Below, piece by piece: positions 523 through 13,173 of a stretch of 13,522 nt of DNA (position 1 is the stretch's first letter; each line of letters starts with the position of its first letter). The translations under genes were made by a program, and so were the position numbers. This stretch comes from Candidatus Atribacteria bacterium 1244-E10-H5-B2. Lineage in GTDB: Bacteria > Atribacterota > JS1 > SB-45 > 34-128. The notes under the pieces were generated by a model, which worked only from the letters and a program-made list of their open reading frames with translations, searched no databases and was not told where the DNA came from. The stretch is from positions 1 through 13,522 of the forward strand of contig NMQN01000432.1 in NCBI GenBank assembly GCA_003575245.1. The letters run 5' to 3'.

Positions 523-853
523 ACAAGGGGAGGTAGTCTTGGTAAAAGTTATTTTCTCTGAAAGTTCAGGAGTCAAAAAGCGACCAGCCTTGATTATTAG
601 TGATAAATATTATCATAATCACCGGCAAGAAGTAGTTGTTTCTGCAATTACTAGCAATGTTGATCGACTATTATCTGGGGATACAAAAATACAGGATTGG
701 CAAAAGGGAGGATTGAAATATCCTTCTTTGGTAACCGGGATTATCCAGACAATAAAAACAAATATGATCGAACGAAAATTAGGAAAGCTTTCGGAGAGAG
801 ATTTCTTAGAGACACAAATAAATCTTAAAAAATCATTAGGTTTTTTGGAATGA
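512..853 (+). CDS. mazF: MazF/PemK-family mRNA endoribonuclease toxin
   Basis: This 113-residue protein matches the MazF/PemK fold in length and motifs. It opens with the typical YKQGEVVLV strand. KKRPALIIS contains Arg24, and AITSN contains Thr47; these correspond to the catalytic Arg and Thr/Ser pair of MazF ribonucleases. MazF toxins cleave single-stranded mRNA at short sequence motifs in the cytoplasm when freed from the antitoxin. The ATG at 512 is preferred, with AAGGA at 496-500 upstream and the family's usual N-terminus; the ATG at 500 would add four residues and is possible. The gene overlaps the antitoxin end. Its TGA stop (851-853) lies inside the first REP-like repeat, so the repeat provides the stop codon. 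Both active-site residues are intact, so the toxin is probably functional. Confidence 0.88.
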   Translation: MKYKQGEVVLVKVIFSESSGVKKRPALIISDKYYHNHRQEVVVSAITSNVDRLLSGDTKIQDWQKGGLKYPSLVTGIIQTIKTNMIERKLGKLSERDFLETQINLKKSLGFLE

Positions 854-884
854 CAAGTTTTGTGCCAGGCACCAGACTTGTCAT
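850..884 (-). repeat. REP-like repeat copy 1 (single 35-nt monomer), also a terminator candidate
   Basis: The outer arms ATGACAAGT and ACTTGTCAT are perfectly complementary (9 bp) and enclose the core palindrome GTGCCAGGCAC. Read on the - strand it matches the monomer found in the other five copies, with one change that perfects the stem. TTTTT follows directly (884-888), so on the + strand it could act as a Rho-independent terminator for the toxin-antitoxin operon. Its second to fourth bases are the toxin's TGA stop. Confidence 0.85.
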
Positions 885-910
885 TTTTAATGAAAGGGTG
901 AAAAGTAAAG

Positions 911-2086
911 ATGGAAATAGTTATTGTTGGGGCTGGCCCGATAGGGTGTTATACAGCACAGTTGTTAAAGAAATGCGGGATTAATAGCTTTAGGATAATT
1001 GAAGAACACGATGAGGTAGGCAAGCCAGTAAGATGTGCCGGGATTGTGGGCAAGCCGGTCTTCGAAGATAGTTTAATACCTTTATCGAGAAGTTCTATAT
1101 TAAATCAGATTAATGGGACCTCATTTTTTTACCGGGGAGATAGTTTTAAGATAGAGAGGTCCGGAGTGGCTCTTGTAATTGACCGGGAGAAGTTTGATAA
1201 GGAGCTGAGCCAGGGATTAGAAGTGGAATGTGGGATAAGATTGCTGGAGGTAGAGGAAGAGCAGGATAAGGGGAGCAGGTATAGGCTAAAGACTAATCAG
1301 GGTGATATTTGGGCTGATATAGTTATGGGAGCTGACGGACCGCGGTCCAGGGTGAAAAAGTTTATAGATTCGAAGGGAAATAATAGTAATGGCTATGATG
1401 GTAGTGACAGCCCCGGCCCCGGGGAAACCAATTTTTATAAAGGGGTCCAGTATAGAATAAAATTAGAAGATTTAGAAGGTGAAGTTTTTTCCAGAGAGAT
1501 GACCCGGGTATATATGCGGGAAGGAATCCCTTTTTTTGTGTGGATTATTCCTGAAGGAAATGGAATTATACGATTAGGGGTAATTGCAGAAAATGGACGC
1601 AGAGAGTTAGAGCGAGTGATAGAAGAAGAAGGTATAAAAGGTGAAATTATCGATAGATTAGCCGGGATTATTCCGTTGGGGTTATGCCAGAGTGTTTATA
1701 AAAAGGTAATGGTAGTGGGGGATGCAGCACGGCAGGTAAAACCTTTGACCGGGGGAGGAATTTATTACGGGATGAAGGCGGCCGAGATTCTGGTGGAGTG
1801 TATTCAGGAAGGCATGCTGGCTGAATATGACAAGAGATGGAAGAGTAAATTTGGAAGAGAAATTAAATTTGGACTGTGGGCCAGGAAAGTTTACGAGAGA
1901 TTAAATAAAGGTGAGTACGAATTAAAGAATATTTTCTCGTTGTTTAAAGAGAATGCGGAATTTATCGAGCGGGCGGCAAATTTTGAAAACCATTCTTTAG
2001 TATTTAGGGAGGCATTTAAAAATCCGAAGATATTTATAGGAGCAGGTAAGATTCTTGGCCGAAATATCGGGAAGATATTATTTTAA
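911..2086 (+). CDS. Geranylgeranyl-reductase-family FAD-dependent oxidoreductase
   Basis: This 391-residue flavoprotein has GAGPIG at residues 7-12 (Rossmann loop for the FAD ADP moiety), PVRCAG at 39-44, GADGPRSR at 140-147 and VVGDAARQVKPLTGGG at 268-283 (second FAD contact). FFVWIIP near 208-214 corresponds to the YxWxFP substrate-cavity motif. The order and length match the geranylgeranyl-reductase family (TIGR02032-like). These enzymes hydrogenate isoprenoid chains of archaeal lipids, chlorophyll or menaquinone. The bacterial substrate here is unknown; a polyprenol or quinone chain is possible. AAAGGGTGA (893-901) lies 9 nt before the ATG. The stop is followed by a 41-nt purine-rich gap to rmlA, so the two genes are probably co-transcribed. 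A low-complexity loop near residues 157-171 (many G, S, D, P) is unusual. The family is confident, the function not. Confidence 0.82.
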   Translation: MEIVIVGAGPIGCYTAQLLKKCGINSFRIIEEHDEVGKPVRCAGIVGKPVFEDSLIPLSRSSILNQINGTSFFYRGDSFKIERSGVALVIDREKFDKELSQGLEVECGIRLLEVEEEQDKGSRYRLKTNQGDIWADIVMGADGPRSRVKKFIDSKGNNSNGYDGSDSPGPGETNFYKGVQYRIKLEDLEGEVFSREMTRVYMREGIPFFVWIIPEGNGIIRLGVIAENGRRELERVIEEEGIKGEIIDRLAGIIPLGLCQSVYKKVMVVGDAARQVKPLTGGGIYYGMKAAEILVECIQEGMLAEYDKRWKSKFGREIKFGLWARKVYERLNKGEYELKNIFSLFKENAEFIERAANFENHSLVFREAFKNPKIFIGAGKILGRNIGKILF

Positions 2087-2115
2087 GAGGAATGAGAGGA
2101 AGAGGAATAAGAGGA

Positions 2116-2120
2116 GGAGG
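2116..2120 (+). promoter_or_regulatory. Shine-Dalgarno that sets the TTG start of rmlA
   Basis: GGAGG at 2116-2120 lies 7 nt before TTG at 2128. It falls in a purine-only tract of about 38 nt with several partial AGGA repeats. An ATG at 2092 further upstream would only translate this tract (Arg/Gly-rich), so it is not the true start. Confidence 0.75.
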
Positions 2121-2127
2121 AAGTAAA

Positions 2128-3198
2128 TTGAAATCAATTATTCTTTGTGCCGGAAAAGGCACTCGCCTTAGACCACTAACTCATACGAGTGCTAAACATT
2201 TAATTCCCATTGCTAATAAACCGGTATTATTTTACGCGATAGAGGCAATTAGGGATTGTGAAATAAAAGACATTGGGATAATTGTTGGGGAGACAGGGGA
2301 GGATATAAGGAGTGAACTCAAAGAGGGTAGTAAATGGGGAGTGAATATTTCTTATATCGAACAGAAAGAAGCCCTGGGGTTGGCTCATGCGGTATCAGTG
2401 GCGCGTGATTTTTTGGGAGAAGATAAATTTTTAATGTATTTAGGGGATAACCTTCTGAAAAATGGAATAGAAAACTATGCCAATAAATTTATTCAAGGAA
2501 ATTATAATACCTTTGTGTTATTGACTGAAGTGGATAATCCGAAGCAATTCGGCGTGGCTGAGGTGGAAGGGGGAAGAGTAGTACGGGTAGTGGAAAAACC
2601 TAAAGAACCAGTAAGCGATTTGGCTTTAATAGGAGTCTATTTTTTTGATAAAAATGTTCATCAGGCTATTGAAAGTATAAAACCTTCTGCCCGGGGGGAA
2701 TTAGAGATTACCGATGCCATTCAGTGGATGATCGATAAGGGCTATAAAGTTGGAGCTGAAGTTATTGAGGGTTGGTGGAAAGATACAGGCAAGCCAGATG
2801 ATATTTTAGAAGCCAATCGTTTAATTTTAGAAGATATTGAGAGAGATGTTGGTGGGGCGAAAGTGGTGGACGAGGTCTCCCAGATTTCAGGAAGAGTAAA
2901 AATCGGAAAAGGGTCAGAGATTATAAATTCTAAGATATTAGGGCCAGTGATAATTGGGAATAAGGTGAAGGTGGTTGATTCCTATATAGGTCCTTTTACT
3001 AGCCTTTCTGATGGAGTAGAAATAAAAAAGGCTGAAATTGAGTATAGTGTGGTATTAGAGAATACTAAGATTGAGAACATAAAAAGGCGAATGCAAAAAT
3101 GTCTAATTGGGAAAGGCGTGAAAATTTACCATTCTAAAGACCTCCCCCGAATATACGAATTCATCTTAGGCGATCACAGCAAAGTTGGATTAATTTAA
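2128..3198 (+). CDS. rmlA: Glucose-1-phosphate thymidylyltransferase, long form
   Basis: RmlA joins dTTP and glucose-1-phosphate to give dTDP-glucose and pyrophosphate, the entry step to dTDP-rhamnose and other deoxysugars. From the TTG start the protein has 356 residues, the usual size of the long RmlA family. The nucleotide-binding signature GKGTRLRPLT is at residues 9-18, with SAKHLIPIANKP at 21-32, GLAHAV at 84-89 and the Mg-binding Asp of YLGDN at 104-108. GWWKDTGKPDD follows in the second half. Residues from about 255 on (VKIGKG, ILGPVIIG, SYIGPF) carry hexapeptide-like repeats of a left-handed beta-helix, which the short RmlA form lacks. The gene follows the GG-reductase-like gene on the same strand and ends just before REP copy 2, opposite a convergent gene. 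No rmlB, rmlC or rmlD is present here, so the final sugar is unknown. Confidence 0.88.
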   Translation: MKSIILCAGKGTRLRPLTHTSAKHLIPIANKPVLFYAIEAIRDCEIKDIGIIVGETGEDIRSELKEGSKWGVNISYIEQKEALGLAHAVSVARDFLGEDKFLMYLGDNLLKNGIENYANKFIQGNYNTFVLLTEVDNPKQFGVAEVEGGRVVRVVEKPKEPVSDLALIGVYFFDKNVHQAIESIKPSARGELEITDAIQWMIDKGYKVGAEVIEGWWKDTGKPDDILEANRLILEDIERDVGGAKVVDEVSQISGRVKIGKGSEIINSKILGPVIIGNKVKVVDSYIGPFTSLSDGVEIKKAEIEYSVVLENTKIENIKRRMQKCLIGKGVKIYHSKDLPRIYEFILGDHSKVGLI

Positions 3199-3201
3199 TG
3201 A

Positions 3202-3273
3202 ATGACAAGTTTTGTGCCAGGCACAAAACTTTACACTTATGACAAATCTGGTGCCTGGCACAAAACTTGTCAT
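3202..3273. repeat. REP-like repeat copy 2 (72-nt doublet) between convergent genes
   Basis: Two monomers lie back to back. The outer 23-nt arms 3202-3224 and 3251-3273 are exact inverted copies, separated by 26 nt. Each arm holds the core palindrome GTGCC(A/T)GGCAC. The second half, 3239-3273, is a canonical 35-nt monomer. The element starts 4 nt after the rmlA stop and ends 1 nt before the stop codon of the opposite gene, so it may form a strong RNA hairpin ending both transcripts. Confidence 0.88.
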
Positions 3274-3274
3274 C

Positions 3275-6200
3275 TTAGAAAGAAGTGCCTAAGGTGATGT
3301 AGATATCATATCCTTTGGGGTCGGTCAGGGCTTTGGCTACCCCTAATCTTAAGGTAAAAGGAGAGTCGTATTTGTAATTAAAGTCTGCTTTTAGTTCTGC
3401 TCCGATACTGGATTTAAAATCCTGCCAGATGGAATTAATTTCATTATTTTCATTGGTTGTATTTGTATTTATACTGGCGCTTTCCCAGGCATTTCCAATA
3501 TCGATAAAGAAGACACCAGAAAGTCTTTCTAAGAAGATGGAGAGGGAGCCAAGTTTAAGACTGTGCTCGATGTTGGCCAGAGGAAAGCGATATTCTAAGC
3601 TGGTTAATATAAGATTGTTTCCTTCGAGGGTGCCAGGTTTATATCCCCGCAAAGAGAAGGTGTTCACATCAGTATTACTTAGATTATCCGCTGAATAATT
3701 ACCTCCCAATTTAAACTTTTCCATTTCTAAACCGAGGTCCATTATGTTAGGGCTGCTAAAGCCAGCTACCAGGCGAAGGGCCAGGACCTGATAGAGGGAT
3801 GGAAGAGGAATAAACTTCCTGCCATCAAATATTAATTTATCAAAAGTATAATCACTACCTAAGGCTTTATCGGCGTGTTCATAGGTCAAAGAGAAGGAGT
3901 TGCCTAGTTCGGGGCTGATAGAGAATCCATATTTTTCTGCATCAGAGTAGGAGTAGCCTAATATCAGGCTACTGATTTTCTCCTGGTTAGTATTTAAAGG
4001 AGATGGTGTGTTAGTAGTTGATGATTTTTCATATTGATAACCGAGAGAAAAGATTTGTCTGTAAGAGCGCGAATTTGTAGCGGAGGCAGTATGTCCTTCA
4101 AGTGGGAAATAAATATTTATACCGGTCTTTCCTTCTTCCCACCAGGAGGTCGGGGAGTTTAAAATAGCATTTCCAGATAGATGAAGATTGATAATAGGTA
4201 CGTGGCTATAATTATAATAATTGAAGTTGTAATTTAGGTTATTATTAAGCAGTCCATAAGTAATAGTTAAAGGAAAGGAAGAGAATCCCAGTACATCTTC
4301 TAATTTAGTAGAAAAGCCAATTCCCAAGTCGTTTTCGGTAAGCTGGGCAGCGGGAATCCAATAGGTAGGTGGCCAGAAAGAAGTAAAGGGATAATAGGGA
4401 TGGACAGGATAATTACTTTTTAAAGAATTGGTTAGATTTTTTAATTGCTCTGTCTGTTGATGAGGGGTTTGCTGTTCTATGTCTACGTTAATTGAGGGTT
4501 CAACATATTCTGTTTCTGTCCATTTATCGGAGTCTACTTCCATAAGATGTAGTTCATATCCGGTGGCGTGATATTCAATGTAAGCCAATTTTTTACCATC
4601 AGGAGAGAGGGCAGGCTGGAAAGCCCCGCTTAATACATTAGTTACTTGATATAATTTTTTATCGGGTAAGGAAAAGGCAAAGATATTGTAGATGCCAGTG
4701 CGGTCAGAGGAGAAGAAGAGATACTGGCCATCGGGAGACCAGCAAGGGCTAAGGTCAATTGATTTATCTTGATAGATAGGCTGGAGAGTAGGAGTGCCGA
4801 TATTGCTAGAATCAAGATTTAAGATATATATATCCTGATAACCCTGGCGCCAGGCGGAAAAGGCTATCATGTTTCCATTAGGAGACCAGGAGGGTTGATA
4901 TAATTGGGTGCCATCTCGAAAGTCTGTTAAATAAGTAATACTCTTTTTTGTAACTGGTGGAACAGCAAAGGAAGAGGAAGTTTGATCAGGGATTGAATTT
5001 AAATTAATTAGGGCTAAATTATTTGTTCCTGATTGATTAATTACTGCAACGATTTGAGGATTATCTAGGTCAGGTGACCAGCTGGGATCGCGAGCCCGCA
5101 GCCCTTCGGAAAGGCGGGTCTCTTTTTCTGTTTTCAAATTAAATAAATAAAGGTCATAAAATTTATAAAATCGCTCATAATCGCCTAATTTAGCATAGAT
5201 TATTTTAGAACTATCAGGAGATATGCTAAAAAAAGAATCCCGCCCATAGGTCCTTTTAATCAGGGGTTGGGTCTGGTTTTTAGTAGAACGGGGAGTAAAA
5301 GGAAGGGAAGGACTTAAGGGGTCGATAGTTTGAATAGATGGATAGGAATGGGGTGTAGAAACTCTGGCTACTATCTTATCTCCATCGGAGGTAGAAATCC
5401 AGCGTGGGTAATCGACCCAATAATTGTATTTAGTTAATTGCTGAGAAGGTGTGAGTTTTTTTTGAGAGAGAATTTTTTGAGCTTGGGATTGATATTTTTC
5501 TTTTAAGTAATCTTTCCAGTTTTGATATAATTCATCCAGGTCCAGGCCTATCGCCCTTTTTATGGCATAGTTAAACCCTAAATAGGGATATTCACAGAAT
5601 ATTTCACTCAAGGTAATTACTTTATCTTCCCCGTATTTTTGAGTCATAAAATGGATAAGGGATTGGCCATATATATAAGGTGCGGTACCGTTAGGCCAGG
5701 AAGTAAGATAATAACCATTTATCTGGTCCAGGGTATTAAACCGGTCTTCTAGGGCGGCCATGCGAAGATACATATCGTAGCGAGAATCTATCCCCCTGCC
5801 TCCGGCGGTAAATTTAGTTTCATTGTAAACAGCTAATCCTTCAGTCGACCAGATGGGCTGGAGGGCATTGGGAGCGAGTATCTGACCGAATAGAGCGCGC
5901 AGGGCAGTAGTGGGGCCGGCGGTCATCTCAAAATGGGCCAGATGGGTGTATTCGTGAGTGATTACCATTTTGAGCCAGCTTTTAAATTTCATATCAAAGG
6001 ATTTGGCAGTGGGGGCGGTGAGTGAAAGGCGAATCACTCTATGAGGGAAATAAGAGGCAAAACCCAGTTTATGATCAGAAAAATCTTCCATAATTATGGC
6101 TATCTTTTGCAGGTGATGATGCTTGGATGGGCCAAGCTGATCATTAACCTGTTGGTAGGTTTCTTCGGCAATATCAGCCACCTCTTGAGCTAATTGCTCA

Positions 6201-6388
6201 TTATTGTAACTGAAATCTTCATTATTTTGTTCATTGTTTTGCAGTTTAGAAAAATAGACTGAAAAATGAGGGCTTTCCAAGACCTGCCAATTTAAGCCGG
6301 GGTCATAGCGAACAGCCACCACACTAGCTGCAGCATGAAGAATAATTAGTGAGATTATTATAATAAAAAAAATTACATTTTTTCTCAT
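3275..6388 (-). CDS. Exported fusion of zinc-peptidase domain, TolB-like propeller and Omp85-type outer-membrane barrel
   Basis: The protein has 1037 residues. Residues 1 to about 25 form a signal peptide (MRKN, a run of Ile/Phe/Leu, then HAAASVVA). HEYTH at 145-149 and WSTEGLAVY around Glu183 give a gluzincin-type HExxH...E zinc site. Residues about 330-625 carry PD40/TolB-like propeller blades (ISPDSSKIIY, PSWSPNGNMIAFS, PCWSPDGQYLFFSSD, PALSPDGKKLAY). From about 685 to the end the sequence is barrel-like, with SLRGYKPG near 911-918 matching the Omp85 VRGF/Y motif, EYRFPL after it, and a terminal Phe, the usual barrel-assembly signal. The peptidase and propeller would lie in the periplasm, the barrel in the outer membrane. 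The ATG at 6388 is chosen: the upstream ATG at 6481 lies in a REP repeat and would bury the signal peptide. AGGT sits 9 nt before 6388. Substrate is unknown. Confidence 0.82.
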   Translation of the reverse strand: MRKNVIFFIIIISLIILHAAASVVAVRYDPGLNWQVLESPHFSVYFSKLQNNEQNNEDFSYNNEQLAQEVADIAEETYQQVNDQLGPSKHHHLQKIAIIMEDFSDHKLGFASYFPHRVIRLSLTAPTAKSFDMKFKSWLKMVITHEYTHLAHFEMTAGPTTALRALFGQILAPNALQPIWSTEGLAVYNETKFTAGGRGIDSRYDMYLRMAALEDRFNTLDQINGYYLTSWPNGTAPYIYGQSLIHFMTQKYGEDKVITLSEIFCEYPYLGFNYAIKRAIGLDLDELYQNWKDYLKEKYQSQAQKILSQKKLTPSQQLTKYNYWVDYPRWISTSDGDKIVARVSTPHSYPSIQTIDPLSPSLPFTPRSTKNQTQPLIKRTYGRDSFFSISPDSSKIIYAKLGDYERFYKFYDLYLFNLKTEKETRLSEGLRARDPSWSPDLDNPQIVAVINQSGTNNLALINLNSIPDQTSSSFAVPPVTKKSITYLTDFRDGTQLYQPSWSPNGNMIAFSAWRQGYQDIYILNLDSSNIGTPTLQPIYQDKSIDLSPCWSPDGQYLFFSSDRTGIYNIFAFSLPDKKLYQVTNVLSGAFQPALSPDGKKLAYIEYHATGYELHLMEVDSDKWTETEYVEPSINVDIEQQTPHQQTEQLKNLTNSLKSNYPVHPYYPFTSFWPPTYWIPAAQLTENDLGIGFSTKLEDVLGFSSFPLTITYGLLNNNLNYNFNYYNYSHVPIINLHLSGNAILNSPTSWWEEGKTGINIYFPLEGHTASATNSRSYRQIFSLGYQYEKSSTTNTPSPLNTNQEKISSLILGYSYSDAEKYGFSISPELGNSFSLTYEHADKALGSDYTFDKLIFDGRKFIPLPSLYQVLALRLVAGFSSPNIMDLGLEMEKFKLGGNYSADNLSNTDVNTFSLRGYKPGTLEGNNLILTSLEYRFPLANIEHSLKLGSLSIFLERLSGVFFIDIGNAWESASINTNTTNENNEINSIWQDFKSSIGAELKADFNYKYDSPFTLRLGVAKALTDPKGYDIYITLGTSF

Positions 6389-6409
6389 ATTTATTATACC
6401 TATATATTT

Positions 6410-6481
6410 ATGACAAGTTTTGTGCCAGGCACCAGATTTGTCATAAATGTAAAATCTGGTGCCTGGCACAAAACTTGTCAT
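6410..6481. repeat. REP-like repeat copy 3 (72-nt doublet), abutting the RAYT stop codon
   Basis: Same 23-nt outer arms as copy 2 (6410-6432 and 6459-6481, exact inverted copies) around a 26-nt middle. That middle is inverted relative to copy 2. The canonical 35-nt monomer is 6410-6444 on the - strand. CAGATTT and AAATCTG inside the middle extend the pairing potential. The element touches the transposase stop codon (TTA at 6482-6484 on +) and ends 21 nt before the start of the next gene on the - strand. Confidence 0.88.
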
Positions 6482-7345
6482 TTATGATAACAAAGAAATT
6501 TTAATGTTACTTAACCATAGACTGAAAAGGGAATCAGATTCTATATTCTTTTGCATTTTATTATTTATATTTAGAACAGACTGTCTGGTGATATGAAAAA
6601 GACGAGCTATTTCGGTTATTTTATATCCTTCTTTTACCAGGACGAAAATCAATAAATTTCTCAAATTTTTATTGGCATTGATATCGCCAAAATATTTATT
6701 AGCTTTTGTTAATATATAATCTATGTTTTTAGGTAAAGTACTTTGGTTAAAATTTGTTATTTCATTCAAAAGTATATCGATTTTTTTGTTCTTTTCAAAA
6801 GAATTTTTTTTGATGAAATTAATAAATTCGTTGGTGCTTATTTCACAAAGCTGGAGAAATTCAGTTATTTTTAGCCAGGGAGGTGCATCTTTTTGCGAGA
6901 TGAAATAGCGAAAGCTCCCCCATTTATATTTTTCAGGCTCAGAAGCATCTACCATTCCTGCTTCAACTGGATTTAGATTAATGTAAGAGGAAATATTAAG
7001 TAAATACTGAAAATTTAAAATAAGGTAACTTTTATATCTATCTTGGAAGAGATGTCCTTTACGCATATGTTTATAATTAAACCAGTGGGCATAAGAGGAA
7101 TTTAAAAACTGCATGGCCTGGGAGAGATTTGCTTCTTCTGTCTTTAAAAGAAGGTGAAAGTGAGTATCCATTAGTACATAGGAAAATAGGTGAGCTTTGT
7201 GAAAGTTAACCATTTTTTGTAGAAGCTGTAGAAATTTATTTTTATCTACATCATCAGTAAAGATATCTATTCCGTCAATCCCCTTAATAATGATATGATA
7301 AATAGCTCCTTCGTGTTCTATTTCTGTTCTATTTCTTCTTCCCAT
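6482..7345 (-). CDS. REP-associated tyrosine transposase (RAYT), Y1/HUH family
   Basis: This 287-residue protein belongs to the Y1 transposase family, single-strand DNA nucleases that join covalently to DNA through one tyrosine. The HUH pair is His62 and His64 in DTHFHLLL. GHLFQDRYKSYL at 97-108 and SYINLNPVEAG at 120-130 are typical of RAYTs. Aligned by the NPV motif to E. coli TnpA-REP (catalytic Tyr115 in DYIYINPV), the nucleophile is Tyr121. Residues about 140-287 form a C-terminal extension with a helix-turn-helix (ITEIARLFHITRQSVLNI), as in RAYT groups with a DnaA-C-like domain. Active-site residues are intact and the frame is unbroken. REP-like copies lie directly after its stop and 48 nt before its start, in opposite orientation, so these repeats are its probable substrates. 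No clear Shine-Dalgarno is present; see the promoter at 7355-7383. Confidence 0.88.
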   Translation of the reverse strand: MGRRNRTEIEHEGAIYHIIIKGIDGIDIFTDDVDKNKFLQLLQKMVNFHKAHLFSYVLMDTHFHLLLKTEEANLSQAMQFLNSSYAHWFNYKHMRKGHLFQDRYKSYLILNFQYLLNISSYINLNPVEAGMVDASEPEKYKWGSFRYFISQKDAPPWLKITEFLQLCEISTNEFINFIKKNSFEKNKKIDILLNEITNFNQSTLPKNIDYILTKANKYFGDINANKNLRNLLIFVLVKEGYKITEIARLFHITRQSVLNINNKMQKNIESDSLFSLWLSNIKISLLS

Positions 7346-7354
7346 AATGGTTAA

Positions 7355-7383
7355 AGTATACTATTTTGTTTAGAATAATTCAA
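7355..7383 (-). promoter_or_regulatory. Promoter of the RAYT gene, possibly giving a leaderless mRNA
   Basis: On the - strand, TTGAAT (7383-7378) and TATACT (7360-7355) are separated by 17 nt. Only 9 nt separate the -10 box from the ATG at 7345, so transcription would begin about 2-4 nt before the start codon. No Shine-Dalgarno is visible, which fits leaderless, low-level translation of the transposase. Confidence 0.55.
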
Positions 7384-7392
7384 GGTATTTTA

Positions 7393-7455
7393 GAGGATCC
7401 CGGCACAAAACTTTACATTTATGACAAATCTGGTGCCTGGCACAAAACTTGTCAT
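7393..7455 (+). repeat. REP-like repeat copy 4 (63-nt doublet, alternate left end), upstream of RAYT
   Basis: The left end is GAGGATCCCGGCAC instead of the full inverted arm; the rest follows the doublet middle and the monomer (7421-7455). Copies 5 and 6 share this left end exactly and differ from copy 4 at two positions each. TTTTT runs from the last base of the repeat, so a transcript read to the right could terminate here. Together with copy 3 it frames the RAYT gene in inverted orientation. Confidence 0.86.
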
Positions 7456-7473
7456 TTTTATTTATAAATTTTG

Positions 7474-7503
7474 TTGGAGTTTTAAAAGGAAGTAAGGTAT
7501 AAT
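7474..7503 (+). promoter_or_regulatory. Possible promoter for the lipoprotein gene
   Basis: TTGGAG (7474-7479), an 18-nt spacer and a perfect TATAAT (7498-7503) point toward the lipoprotein gene and would give a leader of about 150 nt. A second candidate nearer the gene is TTGACT (7609-7614) with a poor -10 (CAATAT, 7632-7637). The whole 7346-7661 gap otherwise holds only the RAYT promoter, REP copy 4 and A/T-rich sequence without supported genes. Confidence 0.35.
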
Positions 7504-7661
7504 TAATTTTAGTTGTTTATCCTAAAGGAAAGTTGGAGAGAATAGTCTAAAAAATAATACATCGGAAATGGTAAAAAACAAAGATAATTTGAAGTAGTAG
7601 TCATAAAGTTGACTTCCTCGTAAGAATAAAACAATATTTGAAGAAAGATATATACTATAAA

Positions 7662-9743
7662 ATGAAGAAATTTTTTATAATATTATCTATATTAATTGTG
7701 GTAACAGTAATGGGAGGTTGCCTAAATTTAGCAAGTGTTTTCCCTATTTTAAATATTGCGCCAGTTATAATTTCTGAACCTATTATTACTGCTACAGAAA
7801 ATCAGCTATATTTATATCAGGTAGAGGCCAGTGATCCCAATGGAGATACTCTGACTCATTCTTCTATTATTAAACCAGAGGGGATGAACATTAATAGCGA
7901 AAATGGTTTAATAATTTGGACACCAACCAATAATCAGGTAGGAATTAACCAGGTAATGGTTGAAATTTCTGATGGTAAACTCAGCACAACTCAGAGTTTT
8001 GAAATTGAAGTTTCCAATGTGAATAATCACCCGCAAATACTTTCTTATTTCCCTGGAAGTTTAAATGTTGTAGTAAATGAAGGGGAATCAATAAAATTTG
8101 AAGTTCAAGCCCATGATATTGATTTAAACACAACATTAAGTTATCAATGGTTTTTAAATGGGAAATTAGTATTAGATTCTACCGTTTCAGGAGATGGTTC
8201 AAAAAGCAGTTGGATTTATTCAGCTAGTTATGGAGATTACAGTCAGAAAATAGTAAAAATTTTAGTAAGTGATGGAGAATTGGAAGATTATATACAATGG
8301 AACATAACAATAAATGACAGTACCCCTCCTGCCCAACCAACTTTAGATACCGTGCTTTCTCCAACAAATGTTTCACCCCAAACTCTTTCTGGAACTAAAG
8401 AATCTAATACTTCAATTTGGATTAATGGAGCAGAGGTAATATCTGTAAATTCCAATACCACCTGGTCATATTCTTATAATCTTTCTGAAGGCGAAAATAA
8501 CATATCAATTATTTCAAAAGATACCGTGGGAAACGAGAGTAACGAAATATATGCTACTATTATTTTAGATATTTCTGTACCAACAATTCCCGGTTTGGAC
8601 ACTATAACTTCTCCGACCAACATCTCGCCACAGATTTTATCCGGTACTAAGGAAACTAATACTTCTATATGGATTAATGGGGTAGAAGTTGTACCTCTTA
8701 ATTCATCTACAAATTGGTCATATTCTTATAATCTCTCTGAAGGAGCCAACAATATCTCAATTACTTCCTGCGATGCCGCCGGAAATGAAAGCTCCGCAGT
8801 ACTCACAACAATAGAATATGACCCCAATATTTACGTAAATATAGGGACCAGCGGAATAGAAGATGGAACCCAAACTCATCCATTTAATTCTATAACCGAA
8901 GGAATAGAGGCAGTTACCTCTGGAAAATCGGTTGTGGTGGCCGCAGGGACTTATAATGAACAGCTGATAATAAATAAAAAAATTGATCTCCTGGGGGCTG
9001 GAAAGGAATCTACTTTTATAATCGGACTCGGATATACGGGGAATTTAATTACCGTTACAGCTGACGATGTCACCATATCTGGATTTACTATTGATGGCAT
9101 ATCAGATACAGATGTAGGAATCTGTAGCGACTCATCCTCTTCAATTGAAATATCAGAAAATTTAATTCAAAATCATCAGGATAGTGGAATTTTCTATCAT
9201 AGGACAAGCGATGATTATCCCTCAGGAATATATGTTTATAATAATGAGATATGTCAAAATTCTATTAATGGAATAAAAGTTACAGGAGCAGGTTCGGGTA
9301 TTATTGAGAGTAATATCATTAGAAATAGCGATTGTGGAATCAAGGCTTCTAACGATGCATCTCTTGAGGTAAAAAAGAATAATATATACAATAATTATGA
9401 TTCTGGCATTTTTTGTCGGAACAACTCTTCATTATTAATTTGGGGTAATGAAATTACTTCTAATGGGTATGGTATAAGGGTGGGCGAACAATATAGCGAT
9501 ACTACTAATCCGGATATAGGAGGAGGAGCTAGGGGAGGAATCGGGAGGAATAATATCACAGGTAATATTATCCATGGTGTTAGCAATATGACCGATCACA
9601 ATATTTACGCTAAATATAACTGGTGGGGAGATGACGAAGGACCTAAATATCCATATCACACTTCAAGTAGTGGTGATTGGGCTTATTGGAGCGAAGCAGG
9701 CGGCGACATTATCTTCAATCCTCATTTAACTGCCGAGCCCTAA
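7662..9743 (+). CDS. Surface lipoprotein with Ig-like domains and a right-handed beta-helix
   Basis: The 693-residue protein starts with a lipoprotein signal: MKK, a hydrophobic stretch and lipobox VMGGC with Cys20 as the lipidated residue. Residues about 34-120 resemble a cadherin/He_PIG-type Ig domain (VEASDPNGD, IIWTPTNNQVG, VEISDGKLS). About 125-220 form another Ig/PKD-like module. Two near-identical 84-residue modules follow (about 224-307 and 308-391; LSGTKE, NTSIWING, WSYSYNLSEG, NNISI). From about 395 to the end lies a parallel beta-helix with many N, G, I and S turns (GIEISEN-like rungs) and the motif NWWGDDEGP at 653-661, common at the end of such helices. Beta-helices often bind or cleave polysaccharides, but no catalytic residues are recognised. 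The ATG at 7662 is preferred over the TTG at 7638 because it places the signal peptide correctly. The gene is visibly A/T-rich. Confidence 0.8.
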   Translation: MKKFFIILSILIVVTVMGGCLNLASVFPILNIAPVIISEPIITATENQLYLYQVEASDPNGDTLTHSSIIKPEGMNINSENGLIIWTPTNNQVGINQVMVEISDGKLSTTQSFEIEVSNVNNHPQILSYFPGSLNVVVNEGESIKFEVQAHDIDLNTTLSYQWFLNGKLVLDSTVSGDGSKSSWIYSASYGDYSQKIVKILVSDGELEDYIQWNITINDSTPPAQPTLDTVLSPTNVSPQTLSGTKESNTSIWINGAEVISVNSNTTWSYSYNLSEGENNISIISKDTVGNESNEIYATIILDISVPTIPGLDTITSPTNISPQILSGTKETNTSIWINGVEVVPLNSSTNWSYSYNLSEGANNISITSCDAAGNESSAVLTTIEYDPNIYVNIGTSGIEDGTQTHPFNSITEGIEAVTSGKSVVVAAGTYNEQLIINKKIDLLGAGKESTFIIGLGYTGNLITVTADDVTISGFTIDGISDTDVGICSDSSSSIEISENLIQNHQDSGIFYHRTSDDYPSGIYVYNNEICQNSINGIKVTGAGSGIIESNIIRNSDCGIKASNDASLEVKKNNIYNNYDSGIFCRNNSSLLIWGNEITSNGYGIRVGEQYSDTTNPDIGGGARGGIGRNNITGNIIHGVSNMTDHNIYAKYNWWGDDEGPKYPYHTSSSGDWAYWSEAGGDIIFNPHLTAEP
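8331..8826 (+). repeat. Tandem duplication encoding two 84-residue Ig-like modules
   Basis: The DNA encoding LDTVLSPTN (from 8343) and LDTITSPTN (from 8595) is offset by exactly 252 nt, in frame. Protein identity between the units is high (SPTN, LSGTKE, NTSIWING, WSYSYNLSEG), while many codon third positions differ, so the duplication is old and under selection at the protein level. Confidence 0.8.
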
Positions 9744-9764
9744 CCTTATAATTAAAGATTTCCA

Positions 9765-9827
9765 GAGGATCCCGGCACAAAACTTTACGTTTATGACAAA
9801 CCTGGTGCCTGGCACAAAACTTGTCAT
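9765..9827 (+). repeat. REP-like repeat copy 5 (63-nt doublet, alternate left end)
   Basis: It starts with GAGGATCCCGGCAC as in copies 4 and 6 and ends with the conserved GGCACAAAACTTGTCAT. It differs from copy 4 at two positions (an A to G and a T to C). It lies 21 nt after the lipoprotein stop. TTTTT begins at its last base, so it could end the lipoprotein transcript. Confidence 0.86.
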
Positions 9828-9839
9828 TTTTGTGCTTGC

Positions 9840-9869
9840 TTGAATAAAGGTTGTGTGGTATGTTATAAA
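9840..9869 (+). promoter_or_regulatory. Promoter of the isomerase/wecA/epimerase unit
   Basis: TTGAAT (9840-9845), an 18-nt spacer and TATAAA (9864-9869) lie just after REP copy 5. A start near 9876 would leave a leader of about 33 nt including the Shine-Dalgarno GGGGAGGA (9894-9901). Confidence 0.55.
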
Positions 9870-9908
9870 ATATAGAAAGATAGGTTAAAATATGGGGAGG
9901 AATGAGCC

Positions 9909-11039
9909 ATGGGAGAGACAGGAAAAAAAATAAACGGTATAGATATATTAGATGGAGATTTTTCTGTGCTGGATCAAGCTAACATGATAAAGCTGTTAGA
10001 GGAATTTCCGCTGAAAATGAGAGATGCTTTGCGTTTAGGTAAGGAATTTTATATTCCTACCGACTTTTCACCTGCTTCAGTCTCTAATTCTGTTCCTGCC
10101 CCTGGCTCTACCCGGAGTTTTAAAAATATCGTGGTATTGGGAATGGGTGGCTCAGCCATCGGCGGGGATCTACTATCTGATTATCTGGCTGATGAATTAT
10201 TAATTCCCATTGTGGTTATTCGCGGTTATGATATACCCAAATTCGTAGATGAAAATTCTTTGGTTTTCGCAGTCAGTTATTCGGGGAATACTGAAGAGAC
10301 TCTCTCTACCTTAAAGAGATGCCTGGAAGCCAAAGCCAGAATTATCGCCCTAACTTCCGGGGGCAAGTTAGCAATTCTTGCCCAAGAGAATAACTTCCCG
10401 GTGATTAAAGTCCCGGTAGGGATTCAACCTCGAGCCGCTATTTCTTATCTATTTTTTCCAATATTGAAAGCATTAGAGAGGCTGGGTTTAATAAAGGAAA
10501 GAAGCGGTGAGACAGAAGAAACACTAAATATTTTACAGGAACTTTCTAAAAAATATTGCGCTAGATCTCCCATTAAAAACAATTTAGCTAAGGAAGTAGC
10601 CTTGAGCCTGTATCAGCATTTGCCCTTGGTTTACGGTTCTGAAGGATTATTAGGGGTAGTGGCTATGCGCTGGAAGACTCAGATAAACGAGAATAGCAAA
10701 TGGCCTTGTTTCTGGAATGTGTTTCCAGAACTTGACCATAACGAAATAGTAGGCTATGAAATAGAAAATAGTATAAACCTACAGGTTAAAATTGTTTATC
10801 TGCAAGACAAAGAGGGGATTTTGAGGGTTGAGCAGAGACGGGAAATTACCCGCAAGATTATCGAAGACAAAGTAGTCGAATTTATAGTTTGTCCTACCAG
10901 AGGCAAAGGAAAAATGGCCCGCATGTTTTCATTAATTTTTTTAGGTGATCTGGCGAGTTATTATTTAGCGATATTAAATCAGGTTGACCCTTCTCCGGTA
11001 GCCTGTATAGAGGATTTAAAAAAAGAATTAGCCAAATAA
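9909..11039 (+). CDS. Bifunctional phosphoglucose/phosphomannose isomerase (SIS-domain, archaeal type)
   Basis: This 376-residue protein has two SIS domains and resembles the archaeal-type PGI/PMI family (TIGR02128-like), not classical PGI of about 550 residues. GMGGSAIGGD is at 78-87 and the sugar-phosphate loop SYSGNTEET at 123-131; QPRAAISY lies at 173-180. In the second half, QINENSKWPCFWN is followed by PELDHNEIVG (273-282), carrying the conserved Glu and His thought to catalyse ring opening and isomerisation. It would interconvert Glc-6-P, Fru-6-P and Man-6-P in the cytosol, feeding glycolysis or sugar-nucleotide synthesis. GGGGAGGA (9894-9901) is 7 nt before the ATG. An insert of about 15 residues rich in Ser/Pro near 52-68 looks like a flexible loop. 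The genes downstream make surface glycans, so a supply role is likely. Confidence 0.88.
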   Translation: MGETGKKINGIDILDGDFSVLDQANMIKLLEEFPLKMRDALRLGKEFYIPTDFSPASVSNSVPAPGSTRSFKNIVVLGMGGSAIGGDLLSDYLADELLIPIVVIRGYDIPKFVDENSLVFAVSYSGNTEETLSTLKRCLEAKARIIALTSGGKLAILAQENNFPVIKVPVGIQPRAAISYLFFPILKALERLGLIKERSGETEETLNILQELSKKYCARSPIKNNLAKEVALSLYQHLPLVYGSEGLLGVVAMRWKTQINENSKWPCFWNVFPELDHNEIVGYEIENSINLQVKIVYLQDKEGILRVEQRREITRKIIEDKVVEFIVCPTRGKGKMARMFSLIFLGDLASYYLAILNQVDPSPVACIEDLKKELAK

Positions 11040-11050
11040 ATTAATAATTT

Positions 11051-11123
11051 GCGAATCAGTGAATTGATTAAATTGATTAGTTGGCCAATTGGAGAATAGG
11101 TCAATTGACAAATTGGTGAATTA
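11051..11123. repeat. Degenerate 8-nt tandem repeat in the isomerase-wecA gap
   Basis: The 73 nt divide into nine consecutive units close to GTGAATTG: GCGAATCA, GTGAATTG, ATTAAATTG, ATTAGTTG, GCCAATTG, GAGAATAG, GTCAATTG, ACAAATTG, GTGAATTA. One unit has an extra base. CAATTG palindromes recur at the unit borders. The stretch fills most of the 104-nt gap and ends shortly before the wecA Shine-Dalgarno. Confidence 0.65.
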
Positions 11124-11143
11124 ATAAACAGGAGAATATATAT

Positions 11144-12067
11144 TTGAAATATCTAGAAGTTGGTGTTATTGCCTTTATAGTTTCTTACATTTTAACTCCC
11201 TACATGGCTCGTATAGGAAAAAAACAGAATATGGTGGATACGCCCGGTCACCGTAAGATACACGAGGAAGCTATCCCTAATTTGGGAGGGATAGTTATTT
11301 TTTTCGGATTTTTGCTGAGCCTGCTCTTTGTAATACAGATAGAGGGACAGTTTAGAGCCCTGTTGATAGGCGCAGTAATTATTCTGTTATTAGGTGTGGT
11401 AGATGATATTGCCAACCTTTCTCCCAAACATAAATTTGTAATTCAGATGGCTCCTGCCTTAATAGTGATTATATACAACAGTGATTTAATAAATAGTTTT
11501 ATAGTTAATCAATTGAAAAGCTTTGATTTATTAGGTTATCTTCTTTATCCTATTTTAATTTTCTGGATAGTCGGAGTGACCAATTCCATCAACATAATAG
11601 ATGGATTAGATGGACTAGCCTGCGGAGTTTCGATAATTAGCTTAATAACTTTTTTTATTTTAGGATTAAGACAGAATTTTGAAATTCTTAATCTTACATC
11701 AATTGCCCTGGCGGGGAGTATGTTGGCTTTTTTAAGATTTAATTTTTACCAGGCAAAAATCTTTTTGGGGGATTCCGGCAGTACTTTTACCGGTTTTGTA
11801 TTGGCCTCCACAGGGGCTTTGTGGGTATTAAATAGCGGAAATGCCTTTTTTATTTTTATCCCCATTATTATTCTGGCTCTCCCTATTTTTGATACCCTGT
11901 TTGCTATCTGGAGGAGATACAGAGGTCATCATCCCATATTTCAGGCTGACAAAGGGCATCTCCACCATCGGCTTTTAGCCCAGGGGATAGCACATAAAAA
12001 TGTCGTGTTTATCTTATGGGGGATAAGCGCTATCTGTAGCCTAATCGCTTTAATTATAGTATTATAA
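11144..12067 (+). CDS. wecA: WecA/TagO-type undecaprenyl-phosphate sugar-1-phosphate transferase
   Basis: This 307-residue multi-pass membrane protein transfers a sugar-1-phosphate (usually GlcNAc-1-P) from a UDP-sugar to undecaprenyl phosphate at the inner face of the cytoplasmic membrane, the first step of many surface glycans. DTPGHRKIH (32-40) and PNLGGI (45-50) open the first loop; GVVDD with Asp87-Asp88 is the Mg-binding site. NSINIIDGLDGL at 147-158 and FLGDSGS at 207-213 follow, and GHLHHRLL (271-278) is the HIHH-type motif that separates WecA/TagO from MraY. About nine or ten hydrophobic segments are visible. It starts at TTG, with AGGAG 9 nt upstream. At 307 residues it is slightly short but complete in motifs. 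Substrate sugar cannot be read from sequence, so wecA is used in the family sense (tagO is equally possible). Confidence 0.88.
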   Translation: MKYLEVGVIAFIVSYILTPYMARIGKKQNMVDTPGHRKIHEEAIPNLGGIVIFFGFLLSLLFVIQIEGQFRALLIGAVIILLLGVVDDIANLSPKHKFVIQMAPALIVIIYNSDLINSFIVNQLKSFDLLGYLLYPILIFWIVGVTNSINIIDGLDGLACGVSIISLITFFILGLRQNFEILNLTSIALAGSMLAFLRFNFYQAKIFLGDSGSTFTGFVLASTGALWVLNSGNAFFIFIPIIILALPIFDTLFAIWRRYRGHHPIFQADKGHLHHRLLAQGIAHKNVVFILWGISAICSLIALIIVL

Positions 12068-12080
12068 TTATAGAGAAAAG

Positions 12081-12143
12081 GAGGATCCCGGCACCAAACT
12101 TTACATTTATGACAAATTTGGTGCCTGGCACAAAACTTGTCAT
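12081..12143 (+). repeat. REP-like repeat copy 6 (63-nt doublet) placed just before the epimerase start
   Basis: It has the GAGGATCCCGGCAC left end and differs from copy 4 at two positions, which here make GGCACCAAA (12090-12098) and TTTGGTGCC (12117-12125) perfectly complementary. It ends one base before the epimerase ATG at 12145. With one preceding G its left end forms GGAGG (12080-12084), a Shine-Dalgarno-like string now more than 60 nt from the start codon. Confidence 0.86.
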
Positions 12144-12144
12144 T

Positions 12145-13173
12145 ATGGGAAAAAAGGTTTTAGTTACTGGTGGGGCGGGCTTTATCGGTTCACATATTGT
12201 GGATTTACTCATTGATAATAATTATAAAGTTGTAATAGTTGACGATTTATCTTCCGGCAGAGAGGAGAATGTCAACAAAAAAGCCCGGTTTTATAAATTA
12301 GATATTACCGACCAAAATGGGTTGGCTGAGGTGTTCAAACAGGAAAAACCTGATTATGTCTGCCATGAAGCCGCCCAGATTAGCGTATCTTTTTCTGTGA
12401 GACACCCTTTATTTGATGTGCAGACAAATATTCTGGGTTCCTTGAATTTAGTGCAATGCTGCTTGATGAATCACCAGGTCAAGGGAATAGTTTTTGCCTC
12501 CAGCGGAGGGACTATTTATGGAGAACCAGAGCATTTTCCCATTACCGAAGATTATCCTTTCAGGCCCCAATCACCTTATGGAATCAGTAAGGTTGCAGTT
12601 GAGCATTATCTTGATTTCTATCAGAAATATTACCATCTCCCATATGTAGCACTAAGATATGGAAATGTCTATGGACCCCGTCAGGACCCTTATGGTGAGG
12701 CCGGGGTTATCGCTATATTTATAGAAAAGATGTTAAAAGGAGAGATTCCTACTATAAATGGTGATGGAGAATATATCAGAGATTATATTTATGTAGAAGA
12801 TGTAGCCCAAGCCAATTTACTCGCTCTTAAAAATATGGTAAAATTATCTAAAGTTGTTTGGGAAATAGAAAAAACTAAAGAAAAAGAAGACAAAGCTGAA
12901 ACCGAAACTAGAACCAAAACAGAACCTGAAATTAAATTTAACGGCTTAAATCTGGGGACCGGAAGAGGGGTTTCGGTTAATGAAATCTTCTCCCTTTTAA
13001 GGAAGATTACAAAATTCCCTCATCCGGCGCATTATGGGCCTCCCAGGGCAGGGGATTTAAGGAAGAATATTCTGGATTGCCATTTAATTAAAGAGGTTTT
13101 AGTGTGGCAACCAAAGTTTGACTTTTCAGCAGGTTTAGAAAAGACAGTTCGCTGGTTTAAAGAGAATATTTAA
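12145..13173 (+). CDS. NAD-dependent nucleotide-sugar epimerase (GalE-like, extended SDR)
   Basis: This 342-residue protein has the NAD loop TGGAGFIGSH (8-17), VDDLSSGR (32-39), HEAAQISV (74-81), SSGGTIYG (119-126) and the catalytic PYGISK (Tyr145, Lys149). ALRYGNVYGPRQ (169-180) and DYIYVEDVA (213-221) are typical of UDP-sugar 4-epimerases. The TDE signature of RmlB is absent, so a dTDP-glucose dehydratase is unlikely. It would interconvert UDP-Glc/UDP-Gal or their N-acetyl or uronate forms. Residues about 230-264 form a charged Lys/Glu/Thr insert between the ANLLAL helix and NLGTG, longer than usual for the family. The ATG at 12145 is chosen because the in-frame ATG at 12109 lies in the REP repeat and would add a repeat-encoded tail. 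No Shine-Dalgarno lies close to 12145. Probably co-transcribed with wecA. Confidence 0.85.
   Translation: MGKKVLVTGGAGFIGSHIVDLLIDNNYKVVIVDDLSSGREENVNKKARFYKLDITDQNGLAEVFKQEKPDYVCHEAAQISVSFSVRHPLFDVQTNILGSLNLVQCCLMNHQVKGIVFASSGGTIYGEPEHFPITEDYPFRPQSPYGISKVAVEHYLDFYQKYYHLPYVALRYGNVYGPRQDPYGEAGVIAIFIEKMLKGEIPTINGDGEYIRDYIYVEDVAQANLLALKNMVKLSKVVWEIEKTKEKEDKAETETRTKTEPEIKFNGLNLGTGRGVSVNEIFSLLRKITKFPHPAHYGPPRAGDLRKNILDCHLIKEVLVWQPKFDFSAGLEKTVRWFKENI

Follow-up and report, generated by a model that had tools for sequence, protein, structure and literature searches.

Concerted in-place turnover of REP-like palindromes at shared intergenic slots around a RAYT-type transposase gene in Atribacterota

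The window analyzed here, i.e., the whole 13,522-nt stretch of contig NMQN01000432.1 of Candidatus Atribacteria bacterium 1244-E10-H5-B2, carries palindromes resembling repetitive extragenic palindromic (REP) elements around a gene for a REP-associated tyrosine transposase (RAYT). Comparison with related genomes revealed concerted in-place turnover of these palindromes, incomplete in some genomes. The intergenic slots are long-lived, while the arm sequence is rewritten largely in step in each species, which suggests overwriting in place and not only addition. Five features were established by calculation: slots common to several genomes, symmetric arms, homogeneous arms in each genome, a repeat unit with borders, and the association with the RAYT.

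The core GTGCCTGGCAC was found on either strand at positions 862, 3214, 3251, 6422, 6459, 7433, 9805 and 12121, i.e., as eight monomers at six places, all of them intergenic. With up to two mismatches to the core, the window yielded 16 strand matches, compared with a mean of 0.84 in shuffled sequences (none of 200 shuffles reached 16). The monomer is an imperfect 35-nt palindrome, and a single outer arm (TGACAAGTTTT / AAAACTTGTCA) was present in all eight. The elements, none assigned to a strand, comprise one singlet (850–884; TGACAAGTTTT-core-CAGACTTGTCA), two inverted doublets and three half-degenerate doublets. The first inverted doublet (3202–3273; monomers 3202–3236 and 3239–3273, core-to-core distance 37 nt) lies between RmlA-like and Omp85-like genes. 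The second (6410–6481; monomers 6410–6444 and 6447–6481) is located on the 3' side of the RAYT gene (6482–7345, minus strand), with its second monomer immediately past the stop codon. The half-degenerate doublets (7393–7455, on the 5' side of the RAYT gene, 9765–9827 and 12081–12143) combine a common left unit AGGATCCCGGCAC with an intact monomer (7421–7455, 9793–9827 and 12109–12143, respectively). The RAYT reading frame between the 6410–6481 doublet and the 7393–7455 element is open through 287 codons. Thus, the six intergenic places with a shared core and the intact transposase among them, as described in an initial annotation of this DNA, were confirmed. The window gave no Rfam match at gathering scores, and the pattern GTGCCTGGCACNNNACTTGTCA was absent from viral contigs.

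The comparison set comprised 14 genomes of one Atribacterota family, to which the genome with the locus L002 described below belongs, and 36 other genomes of the phylum. All are incomplete metagenome-assembled genomes (MAGs). From the window (8 sites) and 13 MAGs (192 of 230 family cores; complete for six MAGs), 200 sites were compiled. Slots were defined by blastn with the palindromes masked, similarity being required in each of the two flanks (at most 1 kb long); this gave 30 orthologous slots with 166 sites and 2 to 12 genomes per slot. All six window places are such slots (27, 2, 0, 1, 3 and 4, in the order of their positions), each occupied in other genomes too, e.g., slot 27 in G007:C34:8247. 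The palindromes follow one plan, an 11-nt variable arm, GTGCC-W-GGCAC and the same arm inverted, framed by A/T runs in some genomes. Within a slot, the centre was the same, and the arms were species-specific in most slots, both changing together. The commonest arm was TGTAAAAAAAA in G014 (36 of 44 arms identical), TGTAAACAAAG in G005 (27 of 60, plus 18 with last A), GTGTCCTAAAG in G007 (21 of 38), GTTAACCAAAG in G008 (17 of 28) and GGTAAACTTT in G006 (any last base, 32 of 38).

The concert between sites was determined for 134 sites, each the sole core of its slot in its genome. Arm identity between different slots of one genome was 0.810 (759 pairs), compared with 0.545 for the same slot in different genomes (327 pairs) and 0.515 for pairs sharing neither (7804 pairs). 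Thus, the arms follow the genome and not the slot. Permutation of genome labels within slots gave 0.552 ± 0.011 (sd), and none of 1000 permutations reached 0.810. Within-genome arm identity was 0.97 in G014, 0.93 in the window and 0.91 in G005. The two arms of a site paired on average at 10.25 of 11 positions (134 sites), compared with 8.74 ± 0.13 when right arms were shuffled within the genome and 7.09 ± 0.23 when they were shuffled within the slot. Orthologous sites that were both perfect palindromes differed in their arms in 115 of 127 pairs. For the 23 pairs with ungapped flanks at least 80% identical, mean identity was 0.893 in the flanks and 0.808 in the arms, the arms being lower in 17. 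In slot 15, for example, the flanks of G007:C39:6305 and G008:C143:1669 were identical at 40 of 40 positions, and each arm showed three differences placed symmetrically (GTGTCCC in G007 versus GTTAACC in G008, on both sides).

Since the same slot can be traced across species, replacement, decay and new insertion are distinguishable, and the data favour replacement. The initial annotation had read the six copies in about 11 kb and their near identity as signs of recent spread, a reading that held only in part. Recent insertion at new places was rejected, since all six window places are shared slots. The density as such held, as a property of the RAYT neighbourhood (see below); the near identity also held, and it fits a homogenisation of old sites.

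The borders of the shared sequence were examined in halves selected as their genome's main arm type. The four bases outside the arm were all A in G007 (24 of 24) and G008 (17 of 17), with A at the fifth position in 54% and 64%, respectively. In G014, the first outer base was A in 97% and the next in 39%. This constant stretch followed by a drop to background indicates that the shared unit is bounded; in G005, the outer A fades (98, 83, 72 and 51%). At least two differences between the arms were present at 44 of the 200 sites, and at 23 of these, exact copies of both halves were present elsewhere in that genome; 15 of the 23 belong to doublet-rich G004. At G012:C197:7188, two complete arm types of its genome are joined at the core. 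In slot 3 of G002, G007 and G012, remnants resembling the window element at 9765 flank a different, newer palindrome; judged by eye, the junctions are apparently the same, but the arms in G007 differ. Half-element motifs near slots numbered 49, compared with 0.85 in shuffled flanks, a count that includes second halves of intact doublets. A damaged-core copy in slot 2 of G007 retains a non-main arm type, which is an isolated case. One scan gave 3 broken and 152 intact cores; the constancy of the core is partly ascertainment, because most loci were picked by exact core.

Doublets (core spacing 36, 37 or 45) numbered 15 among the 200 sites and occurred in five of 14 site sets (G004 8, G005 3, window 2, G006 and G013 one each). 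Many of those in G004 (L075, L123–L134) combine the inner arm TGACAAATTTA with the outer arm GGTAAAAAAAG, and inner arms of the TGACAA type are also found in G005, G006 and G013. Runs of N directly at palindromes (L078 at 6867, L135 near 1520) suggest assembly trouble at hairpins.

The occurrence of the palindromes was associated with the RAYT. The centre GTGCCWGGCAC was found 230 times in 13 of the 14 family genomes, and the reversed control pattern was not found. RAYT-like hits were present in 13 of 14 family genomes and a close RAYT (E of 7e-53 or better) in 11, and each of these 11 held 10–30 cores. One of the three family genomes without a close RAYT had zero cores. Among the 36 other genomes of the phylum, 35 had 0–2 cores, and none had a close RAYT (best E 1.7e-32); the reversed pattern occurred once each in G022, G027 and G032. 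An exact GTGCCTGGCACNNNACTTGTCA scan of one genome per species returned two loci, both in Atribacterota MAGs. All 13 RAYT-bearing contigs, window included, had a core no farther than 300 nt from the gene on each side. A site was counted as genic if its core was inside an open reading frame (ORF) of at least 80 aa and over 60 nt away from both of its ends. By this measure 199 of 200 sites were extragenic, though coding sequence makes up 87% of the 543 kb covered. The initial annotation had named repeats equally common without this RAYT, and no enrichment between genes, as counting against its link between REP-like palindromes and a resident RAYT; neither was seen, and the link was supported, although two family genomes have cores without a detected close RAYT. 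Being short, repeated, extragenic and palindromic with paired arms, and flanking and co-occurring with a cognate RAYT save in G009, G010 and G022, the sequences share these properties with REP elements.

Between tandem genes lay 132 of the 200 sites, 30 lay between divergent and 17 between convergent genes, 20 at locus edges and one within a 93-aa ORF. The distance from the upstream stop codon to the palindrome edge had a median of 4 nt and was at most 30 nt in 79% of 166 cases. In slots 8 and 14, some palindromes appear by eye to stand directly before a ribosome-binding site and might influence how the following gene is translated. Of 202 sites, 64 fell into the 183 kb (of 18.8 Mb) that surround the RAYT (0.350 versus 0.0074 per kb, about 47-fold; G002:C9 did not serve as a centre). 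Of these 64 sites, 40, from 8 of 11 genomes, lay farther than 300 nt from the RAYT. The RAYT is fixed between fam0 and fam3/fam2 in most contigs, G002:C6 deviating on one side. Since much the same gene order surrounds the RAYT in the contigs compared, the clustering may be inherited and not due to local movement.

The 287-aa window protein matched PF01797 (E 5e-11), as did all 23 aligned proteins, and H62, H64, Y121, N125 and P126 were invariant in all 23 aligned relatives. Part of the survey PMC6006769 gives Y---NP as the class 2 Y1 signature. With a Y1_Tnp domain, the HUH motif (H62-x-H64) and the putative catalytic tyrosine in Y121---N125 P126, the protein would be assigned by sequence to class 2 Y1 (RAYT / TnpA-REP). 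With 57.5 bits, it scored below the cut-off of 80 of NCBIfam NF047646 (REP_Tyr_transpos); it is therefore treated as a relative outside the curated group, and equivalog membership is not claimed. A structure model of moderate confidence (pLDDT 64.5) matched TnpA-REP and IS608-type transposases in its N-terminus and DnaA domain IV in its C-terminus (about 204–287). Its best Foldseek match was 4er8, TnpA-REP bound to a REP hairpin, and the predicted fold is thus like that of TnpA-REP. A profile search against the PDB reached 4er8 only with E 0.089, and phmmer with a single sequence gave nothing relevant there. The C-terminal helix-turn-helix of the Bac_DnaA_C, HTH_23 or HTH_28 type that marks subclass 2.1 is present, so that the RAYT resembles DnaA-tailed subclass 2.1; this is a resemblance and not a placement in a tree.

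A recent exchange of the RAYT block with G002 is likely. Compared with the RAYT DNA of G002:C6, the window was 92–100% identical in 60-nt steps over 6460–7239, and the flank 8603–12627 was 78% identical. Locus L002, one of the two GTGCCTGGCACNNNACTTGTCA loci, is syntenic with window 6433–12627 and encodes a RAYT 93% identical in protein; against this locus, the block 6433–7265 showed 92–100% DNA identity, and a long flank about 78%. The higher identity of the block suggests that it was exchanged recently. The left synteny break of the block falls within a palindrome. The TGACAAG arm was present at 1 of 17 G002 sites, next to the C6 RAYT. Slots 1, 3 and 4 of G002:C6 carry GTTAACC, and the same slots in the window carry TGACAAG. 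A second G002 RAYT on C9 is 61% identical to that of the window. The arms of G002 are read as following the dominant RAYT, though the MAG could mix strains.

The explanation that we prefer, and to which we give about an even chance, is RAYT-driven overwriting of REP-like palindromes at old intergenic slots. The adjacent RAYT, of subclass 2.1 type, would have the palindromes as its substrate. A new arm type would arise in each lineage, probably in one of the copies close to the RAYT, and would then overwrite the palindromes in other slots. The HUH nuclease would recognise the hairpin mainly via the constant core and cut it while it is single-stranded at the replication fork. The whole hairpin, or a half broken at the core, would then be swapped for a diffusible one of the current type. 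Position, co-occurrence, chemistry class and the bounded unit point to the RAYT as the agent; for the single-strand route and the role of the core, we likewise infer rather than observe.

Several observations weigh against this explanation. The evidence is computational and comes from incomplete MAGs, and host gene conversion would yield much the same pattern. Within-genome arm identity was only 0.55–0.68 in G001 (0.63), G004, G009 (0.55), G011 (0.55) and G013. In slot 9, the arms were unchanged in three of five genomes: G006:C92, G007:C102 and G008:C35 share GTTGCCAAAAG with flanks 95–97% identical, though their main arm types differ; either this slot escaped turnover or the region was passed between the three genomes. 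Save for one base, arms were also kept in both genomes of slots 24 and 28. G009 and G010 carried 9 and 19 cores, respectively, without a close RAYT in their assemblies, which may reflect assembly gaps or RAYT loss. G022, outside the family, held 48 cores with only distant RAYTs (37% and 40% identity over half the protein), 11 of the cores within about 10 kb around one of these genes (G022:C55, L184). Its arms are of the ATAACTT type on the same GTGCCTGGCAC centre, and its palindromes were treated as a separate system. The RAYT contigs of G001, G006 and G008 are short (4–5 kb) and carry only two flanking cores, so that clustering there depends on the flanking cores alone. The expectation that a broken core freezes old arms was not significant (3 sites, P = 0.21), and no cleavage motif could be named.

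Ordinary gene conversion, in which host recombination or single-strand annealing homogenises the 33–41 nt copies and the RAYT is merely their origin, requires no new enzyme activity and accounts for the within-genome homogeneity and for the half-hybrids joined at the shared core. We consider it unlikely: the unit is short, its flanks are unrelated and the copies lie kilobases apart or on different contigs, and gene conversion alone leaves unexplained the clustering around the RAYT and the near absence of the core in 35 of 36 relatives without this RAYT. Selection would be at work if the palindromes, as operators or 3' mRNA hairpins, tracked changes in a protein that binds DNA or RNA, perhaps the RAYT, with sites mutating independently. 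The conservation of slots between species and the short distance to the upstream stop codon agree with this, as does the rarity of broken cores, though most loci were chosen by an intact core. It would, however, require symmetric double changes at about 10–30 sites per lineage, and the often letter-perfect identity within a bounded unit, as in G014, is not what binding sites, which usually vary, would show. Selection is thus quite improbable.

Loss and independent re-insertion, with intergenic gaps as hot spots refilled by each species' current element, would agree with the behaviour of transposons of this class, which can vacate a target and use it again. In G002C6, one more gap is occupied, that between fam7 and fam8, in which no core was present in the five other aligned contigs; the gap is too diverged for the insertion point to be fixed. 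Against re-insertion, the palindromes stood in the same register in all 23 pairs with flanks 80–100% identical, and no clean empty site, of the kind that the initial annotation had proposed to look for in a relative, was recognised among the matches listed in the joined-flank screen. Re-insertion is accordingly very unlikely. Bidirectional transcription terminators resembling each other by chance would fit the usual position just past stop codons and, in the GT-arm types, the stems flanked by A and T runs, but the window type has reversed runs by the core (TTTT-core-AAAA), some slot 8 and 14 copies leave little promoter room by eye, and the concert between sites is unexplained; a simple terminator role was rejected as a general explanation and is hardly credible.

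Several neighbouring genes (RmlA-like, PGI/PMI, WecA-like, epimerase and Omp85-like) resemble a region for cell-surface polysaccharide. On the plus strand, a gene for a FAD-dependent reductase-like protein of the conserved cluster (fam6; 911–2086) is followed by genes for a glucose-1-phosphate thymidylyltransferase-like (RmlA-like) protein (fam4; 2092–3198), an immunoglobulin/beta-helix surface protein (fam2; 7638–9743), phosphoglucose/phosphomannose isomerase (PGI/PMI; fam7; 9909–11039), a WecA/MraY-like protein (fam8; 11144–12067) and a NAD-dependent epimerase (fam5; 12145–13173). The peptidase MA/propeller/Omp85-like gene (fam0; 3275–6388) lies on the minus strand. The ORFs called mechanically from 6481 and 12109 start within palindromes, and, going by the ORF list, the internal positions 6388 and 12145 are the more probable starts; fam0 and fam5 are given with these corrected starts. 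A ParD-like antitoxin and PemK/MazF-like toxin gene pair occupies 265–853, and the TGA stop of the toxin gene, which ends at 853, is supplied by the first palindrome.

The system resembles the REP/REPIN-RAYT systems (REPtrons) of Pseudomonas, Stenotrophomonas and E. coli in that extragenic palindromes, as singlets and inverted doublets, flank a Y1 HUH transposase gene. Arms differ at orthologous RAYTs, as in the 'orthogroups' described in part of Nunvar 2013 (PMC3686654). Unlike REPtrons, which often have hundreds of copies, it has tens, with a constant 11-nt centre, variable arms and strong clustering around the RAYT, and no GTAG tag marks it. Counted over 400 halves, each taken with 10 nt beyond the arm and 6 nt within it, the hairpin-foot tags GTAG, GTGG and CGTC occurred 3, 0 and 1 times, compared with 11.1, 2.0 and 4.3 in shuffles; since GTAG and CGTC do not mark them, the palindromes are termed REP-like and not filed in those superfamilies. 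The Y1 HUH fold and terminal hairpins are shared with IS200/IS605 transposons (IS608, ISDra2). Unlike these, whose signature is Y---Q, the protein has the class 2 signature Y---NP, and the gene stays in place in most contigs; no movement of it as a transposon was observed. In contrast to TIRYT / subclass 2.1 TnpA-REP (group 1 RAYTs), the flanking palindromes here are a dispersed family with the centre GTGCCWGGCAC. Repeated terminal inverted repeat families were reportedly described by Di Nocera in 2013 for some genomes, so that dispersal as such is not new. The relevant part of PMC6006769 reports GGGGWSAS in most flanking repeats of TIRYTs and no REP-like sequences near subclass 2.1 genes.

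In the orthoswitch model, as set out in the pertinent section of PMC3686654, old copies remain and decay, and its mechanism is described there as speculation only. Here, old copies are overwritten at conserved slots, and this contrast, with the originals rewritten, is the main novelty. Passages of PMC3116915 and PMC8049555 describe no overwriting of old copies. The open-licence literature gave nothing linking REP with 'concerted evolution' and 'transposase', broader terms being off topic by title; searches for the core sequence or for 'Atribacter' with 'palindromic repeat' gave, by title, nothing on these repeats.

The dissemination mechanisms of REP elements are called poorly understood in part of a 2021 TnpA-REP paper (PMC8266576). 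The present system bears on how REP palindromes are disseminated and on why RAYTs persist in genomes over such long times. It links the DnaA-tailed RAYT type, reported without REP-like neighbours, to dispersed constant-centre palindromes, which are a ready candidate substrate for cleavage and strand-transfer assays. Tentatively, and as a possibility that we hold to be rather less than probable, the RAYT may be a hairpin-exchange enzyme that keeps intergenic hairpins alike by in-place overwriting at fixed slots, with arms sweeping like driven alleles and with the core and the slot positions unchanged. If so, the transposase would have been domesticated to rewrite copies in place and not to spread them, and the ceiling on REP copy number would be set by the slots and not by insertion.

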